Below, piece by piece: positions 45,789 to 48,070 of a stretch of 64,000 bases of DNA; within the stretch, counting starts at the first letter, position 1, and every line of letters starts with the position of its first letter. The DNA is from an uncultured Granulosicoccaceae bacterium (GTDB lineage Bacteria; Pseudomonadota; Gammaproteobacteria; Granulosicoccales; Granulosicoccaceae). Under the pieces are notes generated by a model. It did no database searches, was not told the DNA's origin, and saw nothing but the letters and a program-made list of their open reading frames with translations. The position numbers and the translations under genes were made by a program. Location: NCBI GenBank assembly GCA_937981955.1, contig CALJNA010000032.1:1-64000 (forward strand), read 5' to 3'.

Positions 45789-47072
45789 ATGAGTACCGTC
45801 AGCGCAGAGCTAATTGAAGATCCTGTCGCCATTGTACAAACCTGTGGTGAGCGAGCCAGTGCTTGCGCATCCATTCTGGCCAGTACCGATACCGCTGTGA
45901 AAAACGCTGCGCTGTTGGCCATGGCGGATGCCATTGATGCGTCGGTAGACACGCTGTTGCAAGCAAATGCAAAAGATCTCGAACTGGCAAAAGGCAGCGG
46001 AATCAGCGATGCGTTGTTTGATCGGCTGGAACTCAATCACGATCGTATCGCATCCATGTCAAAAGGGTTGCGTGATATCGCAGCGCAACCTGACCCTGTC
46101 GGTGCACTTTCAGCCAGCGAGCGTCAGCCCTCAGGGTTGGAAATCGCACGTATGCGCGTGCCGCTTGGTGTTATTGGGGTTATCTACGAGTCACGACCGA
46201 ATGTCACAGCCGATGCTGCGGCTTTGTGCTTAAAGTCGGGTAACGCGGTTATTCTGCGTGGCGGAACAGAAGCCAGGCAATCGAATATGGCGATTGCAAA
46301 ATGCATTACTCAAGGGTTGCTAAAGGTGGGTTTACCTGAACATGCTGTGCAGCTGGTGCCCACCACAGACAGAGCAGCCGTTGGTGCCATGTTGGTAATG
46401 GAAGAGCATATCGATGTGATCATTCCACGTGGCGGGAAAGGATTGACCACTCGCATTAGTAAAGATGCGAAGGTGCCGGTGATAAAACACCTCGATGGTA
46501 TTTGTCATGTGTACATCGACACTGGTGCAGATAAAGAAAAAGCCCATGCGGTCGCATTTAATTCCAAAACATACCGCTACGGCATTTGCGGTGCAATGGA
46601 AACCTTGCTGGTCGCTGAGTCAGAAGCCGCAACCGTGTTGCCGGATTTGTGTGACGCGCTGAATGAGCACGGTGTTGAAGTGCTCGGTTGTTCAAGAGCC
46701 AAAGGCATTGTCAGTCATATTGGCACCGCATCGGAAGAAGACTGGAGCACAGAGTATCTTGCACCCGTGCTGTCGATAAAAATTGTCGACGGTATTGATG
46801 AGGCAATGCAACACATCGCGCAGTATGGCTCGGGGCATACCGATGCCATAGTCACCAGTGATATAGAGCGCGGCAGAAAATTTGTTCGTCAGGTTGATTC
46901 CAGTTCTGTCATGGTCAATGCGGCGACTTGCTTTGCAGATGGTGCACAGTATGGACTGGGTGCGGAAATCGGTATCAGCACAAACAAGATGCATGTGCGT
47001 GGCCCGGTAGGTGCACTGGGTCTCACAACCGAAAAATACGTGGTAACTGGGGATGGTACAACGCGTAACTAG
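45789..47072 (+). CDS. proA: Gamma-glutamyl phosphate reductase (ProA)
   Basis: A 427-residue NADPH-dependent enzyme for the second step of proline synthesis, yielding glutamate-5-semialdehyde. Key features are RVPLGVIGVIYESRPNVT, ILRGGTEA, the catalytic cysteine in TYRYGICGAMETLLV, and SSVMVNAATCFADG. ProB is not adjacent. The gene is followed by the arfA-like gene and nadD, as in several Gammaproteobacteria. Confidence 0.95.
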   Translation: MSTVSAELIEDPVAIVQTCGERASACASILASTDTAVKNAALLAMADAIDASVDTLLQANAKDLELAKGSGISDALFDRLELNHDRIASMSKGLRDIAAQPDPVGALSASERQPSGLEIARMRVPLGVIGVIYESRPNVTADAAALCLKSGNAVILRGGTEARQSNMAIAKCITQGLLKVGLPEHAVQLVPTTDRAAVGAMLVMEEHIDVIIPRGGKGLTTRISKDAKVPVIKHLDGICHVYIDTGADKEKAHAVAFNSKTYRYGICGAMETLLVAESEAATVLPDLCDALNEHGVEVLGCSRAKGIVSHIGTASEEDWSTEYLAPVLSIKIVDGIDEAMQHIAQYGSGHTDAIVTSDIERGRKFVRQVDSSSVMVNAATCFADGAQYGLGAEIGISTNKMHVRGPVGALGLTTEKYVVTGDGTTRN

Positions 47073-47159
47073 TTGTTAAATATGATTGATAAGTGTTTGC
47101 CTGGTCCATACCTTTGTCGATACGGGTACCAAGGGTATACACAACAGAAAGGAAAAAGT

Positions 47160-47420
47160 ATGAGTAAACAAAGAAAACGAAACACGAAACAATCCGTTAA
47201 ACAGCCACCGATAAAAGAACGGAATTCAGTCGCATTGAATCCCTTGCTAAAAAAATCATCGGTGCACGAAAAATCCGGCAAGGCAAAACGTACTGCCGCA
47301 AAAGTACAACTGAAGAAAACCTGGCTTGATCGAGCTGCTGCTGTTGCAGCATCTGGCTCAAGCCAGGTTTTCTGTTTTATTGCTGCATCTCTTGCCTTAC
47401 CGTTTCAGCAGGTGCGCTAA
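47160..47420 (+). CDS. arfA: ArfA-like alternative ribosome-rescue factor with hairpin inside the coding sequence
   Basis: An 86-residue, very basic protein. Residues 18-45 (IKERNSVALNPLLKKSSVHE and KSGKAKRT) resemble the ArfA core that binds the mRNA channel and recruits RF2. The ATG at 47160 has AAGGA upstream. Codons 52-57 and 67-71 form the two arms of a strong stem-loop. In E. coli arfA such a hairpin causes transcript ends without a stop codon, so that only a shortened protein is made when tmRNA is lacking. The hydrophobic tail (SQVFCFIAASLALPF) after the hairpin matches the unstable tail of full-length ArfA. Identity is by pattern, not search. Confidence 0.72.
   Translation: MSKQRKRNTKQSVKQPPIKERNSVALNPLLKKSSVHEKSGKAKRTAAKVQLKKTWLDRAAAVAASGSSQVFCFIAASLALPFQQVR
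47315..47381 (+). terminator. Intragenic stem-loop and U-run in the arfA-like gene
   Basis: Fifteen perfect base pairs (47315-47329 with 47358-47372) enclose a 28-nt loop that has its own short stem (TGCTGC...GCAGCA). The right arm ends in TTTTC followed by TGTTTTATT, a U-rich tract fitting intrinsic termination. All of it lies before the arfA-like stop at 47418-47420. The long perfect stem could also be cut by RNase III. Confidence 0.75.
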
Positions 47421-47458
47421 TCGAATCATTTAGCAACAACACCGCGAAACGTATCGGT

Positions 47459-48070
47459 TTGTTTGGTGGAACGTTCGACCCAGTGCACTTTGGACACCTT
47501 CGTCCTGCAGTAGAGCTGGCAGAGGCGTTTAACCTCGACCGGCTGCACCTGTTGCCGAATCATCGCCCGGTTCATCGCGACGCTCCATCGGCTACGACCG
47601 AACAACGCATTGCCATGCTGGAGCTTGCCACACAATCTCAACCGCAGTTGATCGTCGATCCGCGTGAAGCCATGCGCGACAAAGCGTCTTACACCTTCGA
47701 TACCCTGACAGAGTTCCGTCACGAGTACCCTGAGAGTTCCCTGGTCTTTTTTATGGGTCTGGATGCCTATTCGGAATTCGATACCTGGCACCGCTGGCAG
47801 GATATCTTGCAGCTTGCCAACCTGGTCGTGGTAGAGCGTCCGGATGCAAAAATGAGTGCGTGGGCGGCTGATTTACTCAAAACCCAGCAGAAAACGTATG
47901 GAAGCAAAGCGATTGATGCAGCTTTTGGTGTAATTGAGCGGCGCAACGTGACTCAGTTGGCTATATCTGCAACCGATATCAGGCATCGTATTCAGGCTGG
48001 CGAAAGCATCGATTTCCTCCTGCCCCAGAGCGTAAAAGAGTATATTGATCGCCAGCAACTTTATCGGTAG
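47459..48070 (+). CDS. nadD: Nicotinate-nucleotide adenylyltransferase (NadD)
   Basis: The enzyme makes deamido-NAD from nicotinate mononucleotide. The nucleotidyltransferase site GTFDPVHFGHLR (HFGH) and the C-terminal ISATDIRHRI, LLPQSVKEYID are clear. A TTG at 47459 is the first standard start and gives 203 residues, but it falls on the leucine of RIGLFGGTF and would remove the first beta strand. The frame stays open upstream, with no ATG, GTG or TTG. An ATC at 47420, with AGGTG five bases before it and overlapping the arfA stop (TAATC), would give 216 residues, close to E. coli NadD. The true start is unresolved. Confidence 0.88.
   Translation: MFGGTFDPVHFGHLRPAVELAEAFNLDRLHLLPNHRPVHRDAPSATTEQRIAMLELATQSQPQLIVDPREAMRDKASYTFDTLTEFRHEYPESSLVFFMGLDAYSEFDTWHRWQDILQLANLVVVERPDAKMSAWAADLLKTQQKTYGSKAIDAAFGVIERRNVTQLAISATDIRHRIQAGESIDFLLPQSVKEYIDRQQLYR

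Follow-up and report, generated by a model that had tools for sequence, protein, structure and literature searches.

The window, the whole 64,000-nucleotide stretch of DNA analysed here, carries between proA and nadD a small gene for a basic protein of an uncatalogued family. The coding core of this gene ends about where a strong, conserved hairpin begins, and no stop codon precedes the hairpin. By analogy with known systems, we suggest that the gene product is, on balance, an alternative ribosome-rescue factor translated from a message without a usable stop codon. For the family as a whole we give about even weight to a broader proposal, namely that it constitutes an unrecognised group of adaptors for ribosome rescue that has no relation to ArfA, BrfA, ArfT or ArfB and would exist in two forms. 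One would be co-expressed with the RNA ligase RtcB, coupling RNA repair and ribosome release, and the other would stand alone, its synthesis being confined to non-stop mRNA and controlled by tmRNA.

The gene between proA and nadD

The gene and its surroundings comprise the following features.

45789..47072, + strand: proA, the upstream neighbour (NF001221/TIGR00407)
47148..47153, + strand: Shine-Dalgarno-like AAAGGA, read from the sequence, with an ATG 6 nt downstream
47160..47420, + strand: open reading frame of 86 codons, a stand-alone member of the RNxVAx(N/S)PLLxKGGxHxKS family (orthologues; pN/pS 0.31)
47220..47324, + strand: conserved basic core, codons 21-55, RNSVALNPLLKKSSVHEKSGKAKRTAAKVQLKKTW (alignments; the 52-aa homologue of Acinetobacter baumannii ends at equivalent residues)
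47459..48070, + strand: nadD, the downstream neighbour (NF000839/TIGR00482)

A preliminary description had placed a basic protein of 86 residues at 47160-47420, between proA and nadD. The reading frame, the AAAGGA and the ATG were found as stated there, and the order proA-X-nadD is correct, with both neighbours identified by NCBIfam models. The frame closes with a TAA at 47418-47420, 45 bases past the end of the hairpin. Codons 21-55 are likely the active part of the protein. In an AlphaFold model (mean pLDDT 75) the N-terminus is extended and residues 40-64 form a helix, an arrangement compatible with, and not diagnostic of, a channel-binding tail.

The nadD gene of the window has no ATG, GTG or TTG ahead of its conserved RIGLFGGTFDP (window 47418-47461). 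In sister genomes a TAATG overlaps the stop of the small gene, and the window has TAATC instead. The ATC may be a rare start codon, or a base may be in error.

We searched related genomes and obtained 12 proA-X-nadD orthologues from the same genus or family, 13 with the window. Of the 48 genomes that represent the taxonomic family, only 17 have the gene at E<=0.01. Among the 13, the length of the N-terminus varies and the core RNxVAxNPLLxKSxxHxKSxKAxRxxxKxxLKK is constant. In the eight closest sequences pN is 0.24 and pS 0.77, giving a pN/pS of 0.31 that indicates purifying selection and that overstates the true dN/dS, since synonymous sites are saturated. That the frame is not a gene at all is thus a practically negligible prospect: the window protein has no match in any protein library, but its start, Shine-Dalgarno sequence and core are conserved, this ratio is reached with saturated synonymous sites, and homologues occur throughout the Gammaproteobacteria and beyond.

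A conserved hairpin inside the reading frame

Three further features lie in the 3' part of the gene.

47314..47373, + strand: in-frame hairpin with a lower stem of 16 bp (47314-47329 with 47358-47373) and 24 pairs in total (folding, covariation, z -8.6)
about 47366..47379, + strand: U-rich stretch at the 3' foot of the hairpin, GGTTTTCTGTTTTA, partly within the stem (sequence, terminator-like site)
47374..47417, + strand: hydrophobic, non-conserved read-through tail, CFIAASLALPFQQVR (GRAVY +1.06 versus -0.99 for the core)

The 5' arm begins at codon 52, with no in-frame stop before it. Positions 47300-47430 fold at -52.3 kcal/mol, compared with -32.9 +/- 3.3 for shuffled sequences (z -5.8), and the best 60-nt window over the hairpin reaches z -8.6. 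The preliminary description had reported a 15-bp stem at codons 52-71 followed by a U-run; the in-frame hairpin is real, and its stem is slightly longer than was described. A terminator-like site is present, but its U-run is interrupted, so that termination here is uncertain. We predict that the hairpin is an RNase III substrate, a terminator stem, or both.

All 13 proA-X-nadD orthologues keep the protein core and a hairpin. In an alignment of the eight closest sequences the stem is free of gaps and 97% of its cells hold standard pairs. Two-sided changes affect 8 of the 21 stem pairs (15 cells). When the 3' partner was slid by 1-3 columns, at most three pairs showed two-sided changes and pairing fell to 44%; when the 3' letters were shuffled, the observed covariation score was never reached. 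In L011-L015 the hairpin sequence has wholly turned over and a long in-frame hairpin is still there, two of these hairpins reaching only z about -2 to -2.7. The hairpin of the window, kept with covariation in its orthologues, is therefore not a product of chance; it is a conserved in-frame element selected as RNA.

In L004, L006 and L007 a stop codon lies in the hairpin loop, and in L036 and L091 one lies in or near the hairpin. Cleavage of the stem would remove the stop in these cases.

Relationship to ArfA

The preliminary description had called the gene ArfA-like, with the layout of E. coli arfA, i.e. a short basic protein with an in-frame hairpin before the stop. That layout is confirmed and is conserved among the orthologues. 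The identity with ArfA does not hold. The profile search that had been named as a check, with the Pfam ArfA family PF03889, gave no match for the window protein at E<=10 and none for eight other family members. Across the whole window genome there was no PF03889 match at E<=0.01, and only two sub-cutoff chance matches elsewhere. The KGKGS mRNA-channel motif, found in every true ArfA retrieved, is absent from the window protein and from both family alignments. Aligning the family with ArfA sequences in hhalign gave a probability of 0.1-0.2%, and ArfAs score about 4 bits or less on the family HMM, versus 34.6 bits for the A. baumannii homologue, which had been held out of the profile. Since Pfam, NCBIfam, the genome-wide PF03889 search and hhalign were all negative, ArfA was dropped as the identity of the protein. 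The preliminary description had itself named the lack of an ArfA profile match as a refutation; this outcome removes the identity and leaves regulation of the arfA kind standing as a proposal.

A true ArfA, related by descent and strongly diverged, would share the size, charge and hairpin layout seen here, and inspection shows a loosely comparable PL(L/F)(R/K) step ahead of the basic part. Against these likenesses stand the negative profile, motif, hhalign and HMM results, and we consider common descent very unlikely. More broadly, Pfam, NCBIfam, PDB and hhalign gave no sequence or profile link between the family and any proven rescue factor.

An uncatalogued protein family

The family is defined by the motif RNxVAx(N/S)PLLxKGGxHxKSxxAxR and occurs in the Gammaproteobacteria and the beta lineage; over the whole family the broad motif reads RNPVARSPLLRKGGxHxKSKxxxR. 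The window protein belongs to it by profile match and conserved core. When 274 genomes drawn from the class were searched with the orthologue profile, 21 had members. A scan of named genomes added 47 loci, whose hosts include Chromatiaceae, Thiothrix, Beggiatoa-like bacteria, Competibacteraceae, Arenicella, Marinicella, Nitrosomonas, Burkholderiales and Mariprofundaceae. Homology between the proA-nadD group and the remaining members is clear (hhalign 96.7%, E 4e-10).

The members scanned have no match in Pfam or NCBIfam, and a search with the family profile gave none in PDB. We found no match to the family in phages, nor in plasmids (two queries). Three PLSDB "plasmid" records of A. baumannii (NZ_CP077849.1, NZ_CP064203.1 and NZ_CP104448.1; 3.7-4.1 Mb) resemble misfiled chromosomes. 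The literature searched, which leaves most subscription journals outside its coverage, held no earlier report of the family.

A Burkholderiales/beta subgroup (L113, L115, L117, L118, L121-L123 and L125) has the form MKRAKxHxxPKPRNPVARSPLLRKGGAHGKS...RDP and lacks the hairpin. In L113 and L117 the gene lies downstream of an amidase-like gene, and in L117 also upstream of a ChaC-like gene.

Hairpins and tails across the family

Among 74 non-redundant members, 26 have a coding 3' end folding with z<-3, versus 3 of 116 neighbouring genes treated identically as controls (Fisher p 1e-9, a nominal value, as family members share ancestry). Textbook intrinsic terminators occur in frame, with no prior stop, at the unrelated loci L047, L048, L090 and L127; the last, in Marinicella sediminis, has a predicted non-stop product of about 50 aa. 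The 3'-end folding scores give no in-frame hairpin for the Burkholderiales MKRAK group or for most Chromatiaceae. A hairpin in every member was accordingly rejected, as many distant members are without one, and its absence from other branches points to a repeated mode of control and not to a universal feature.

It could be argued that the hairpin serves only to terminate or process an operon transcript, between proA and nadD or downstream of rtcB, and overlaps the 3' end of the small gene by chance. Its U-rich foot is terminator-like, and several RtcB-linked members are the last gene of an operon and end in a terminator. However, in many lineages the frame crosses the hairpin with no earlier stop and runs 15-40 codons beyond it, hairpins accompany the protein at unrelated loci, and the stems exceed what a terminator needs, often with no clean U-run. 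Chance overlap is for these reasons most improbable.

The tails that follow the hairpins are non-conserved yet hydrophobic (mean GRAVY +0.66 versus -1.08 for the core). Full-length ArfA has been described with such a hydrophobic tail (PMC8012679). Of the 13 proA-nadD orthologues, which are not independent of each other, 7 have a full frame ending in AA, compared with 8 of 268 control ORFs. The tmRNA tag of the window genome is ANDDNYAMAA. We infer that such tails are built into the read-through product as a further safeguard and direct its degradation. L055, a true ArfA of the KGKGS type, has a full frame ending in ...SLLLAA, which suggests that AA-ending read-through tails also exist in real ArfAs.

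Association with RtcB

Outside the proA-nadD arrangement, a gene for the RNA ligase RtcB lies on the same strand within about 2.7 kb at 30 of 61 loci, often immediately upstream. These neighbours were verified by Pfam PF01139, and they score under the cut-off of TIGR03073, the model for PrfH-linked RtcB. An RNA- and ribosome-repair operon that joins RtcB to the release factor PrfH is already established (PMC9223846, PMC1586002).

In A. baumannii a 52-codon ORF begins three bases after rtcB, and the record used lists no gene over it. An ordinary stop closes it at ...QLKKGVW, about equivalent to the ...QLKKTW at the start of the hairpin in the window. By ending where the window hairpin starts, this form speaks for a complete domain ahead of the hairpin.

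At 18 loci the gene directly upstream of the small gene, or lying between it and rtcB, encodes an uncharacterised protein of about 300 aa. This protein has no Pfam or NCBIfam match (L083, L084, L086, L090, L091, L093, L095, L096, L101, L114, L080, L081, L111). In the Chromatiaceae loci L097, L099, L100, L104, L105 and L110 the order is an SPFH/slipin-like gene, the small gene and rtcB. Most of these have a weak hairpin or none, as expected if rtcB is transcribed through it.

The association could reflect a role in RNA repair that involves no peptide release. The family would then be an accessory of RtcB, an RNA-binding or chaperone peptide, and the hairpin would serve tmRNA- or RNase III-coupled control of its level in stand-alone copies. 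The frequency of RtcB neighbours, the A. baumannii copy being the next gene after rtcB, and a strongly basic core that lacks any known catalytic or release-factor motif all speak for this. The combination of hairpin and non-stop layout is not known outside the rescue factors ArfA and BrfA (PMC8012679, PMC6881298), the genus of the window keeps the gene away from RtcB, and within one genus the family alternates with ArfA, in four genomes only. Weighing these points, we regard the accessory role as unlikely.

tmRNA, ArfA and ArfB in the same genomes

The window genome encodes tmRNA, SmpB and ArfB, the first two being required for control of the arfA kind. Given its ArfB, another back-up is not strictly needed. 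Mutual exclusion between the family and ArfB was rejected, since clear ArfB matches are present in 39 of 48 genomes of the taxonomic family, the window genome included.

Of the four genomes from genus g57, three have ArfA and one has a family member instead, at a different locus. A swap of ArfA for the family member in place was rejected because the neighbours differ. In the class sample of 274 genomes the family is found in 21 and ArfA in 4 with no overlap, counts that are uninformative on mutual exclusion; the one hint of it comes from genus g57.

Proposed mechanism

Judged by its anatomy and by the precedents of ArfA and BrfA, the hairpin quite probably yields a non-stop message under tmRNA control. 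An RNase III cut in the stem, termination at its foot, or both, would give a non-stop mRNA of about 52-72 codons. In normal cells tmRNA-SmpB would tag the product for degradation. When trans-translation is overloaded, the truncated protein would accumulate and free ribosomes at the 3' ends of mRNAs. Its basic KGGxHxKS/helix part would probably occupy the vacant mRNA channel and bring in a release factor. The rare read-through product, with its hydrophobic tail and, in several orthologues, an -AA end like that of the tag ANDDNYAMAA, would be unstable.

That the protein rescues ribosomes is somewhat more probable than the opposite, given the layout, the charge, the link to RtcB and the alternation with ArfA in one genus. 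Points against it are the lack of a sequence or profile link to proven rescue factors, the ArfB of the window genome, the presence of the gene in only 17 of 48 genomes from the taxonomic family, and the many distant members that have no in-frame hairpin. The RtcB neighbourhood, in which some members have an ordinary stop, fits a role in translation damage.

If this is true, the family is a new one of the ArfA/BrfA kind, unrelated to these in sequence and with a form linked to RNA repair, and the RtcB link, if true, would tie non-stop rescue to RNA repair. A small basic ORF overlain by a conserved in-frame hairpin can be searched for without regard to sequence; here this led to a family of many members. 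Inhibitors of trans-translation are under development as antibiotics, and back-up pathways therefore matter for whether such drugs work. The family extends to A. baumannii.

Comparison with known systems

Like the window gene, that of ArfA (E. coli YhdL, PF03889) codes for a short basic protein and has an in-frame hairpin in the 3' part of its coding region, before the stop. Also alike are the expected truncated product of about 52-60 aa, the hydrophobic read-through tail and the presence of tmRNA for repression. The window family differs in having neither sequence or profile similarity to ArfA nor KGKGS; it has KGGxHxKS and the predicted helix at 40-64 instead. The genomic context of the window gene also differs, and the family is often linked to RtcB.

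In BrfA (B. subtilis YqkK) an intrinsic terminator within the coding region gives a non-stop message (PMC6881298). The in-frame intrinsic terminators of L047, L048, L090 and L127 resemble this arrangement. BrfA, compared here by its description only, is described as limited to Bacillus. The window hairpin is closer in appearance to an RNase III substrate.

ArfT of F. tularensis, a basic protein of very small size, carries the motif KKGGSTNKK (PMC6299226). This motif recalls the RKGGxHxKSK of the family, a likeness seen by eye from the motif alone and to be taken as a lead only. ArfT has an ordinary stop, as does the A. baumannii member, but it is 40 aa long and is not regulated by a hairpin.

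The RtcB-PrfH operon (RtcB2-PrfH) offers a parallel in that a putative translation-rescue protein is encoded beside an RtcB RNA ligase. PrfH is a release-factor paralogue, whereas the family described here consists of unrelated peptides of 50-90 aa.
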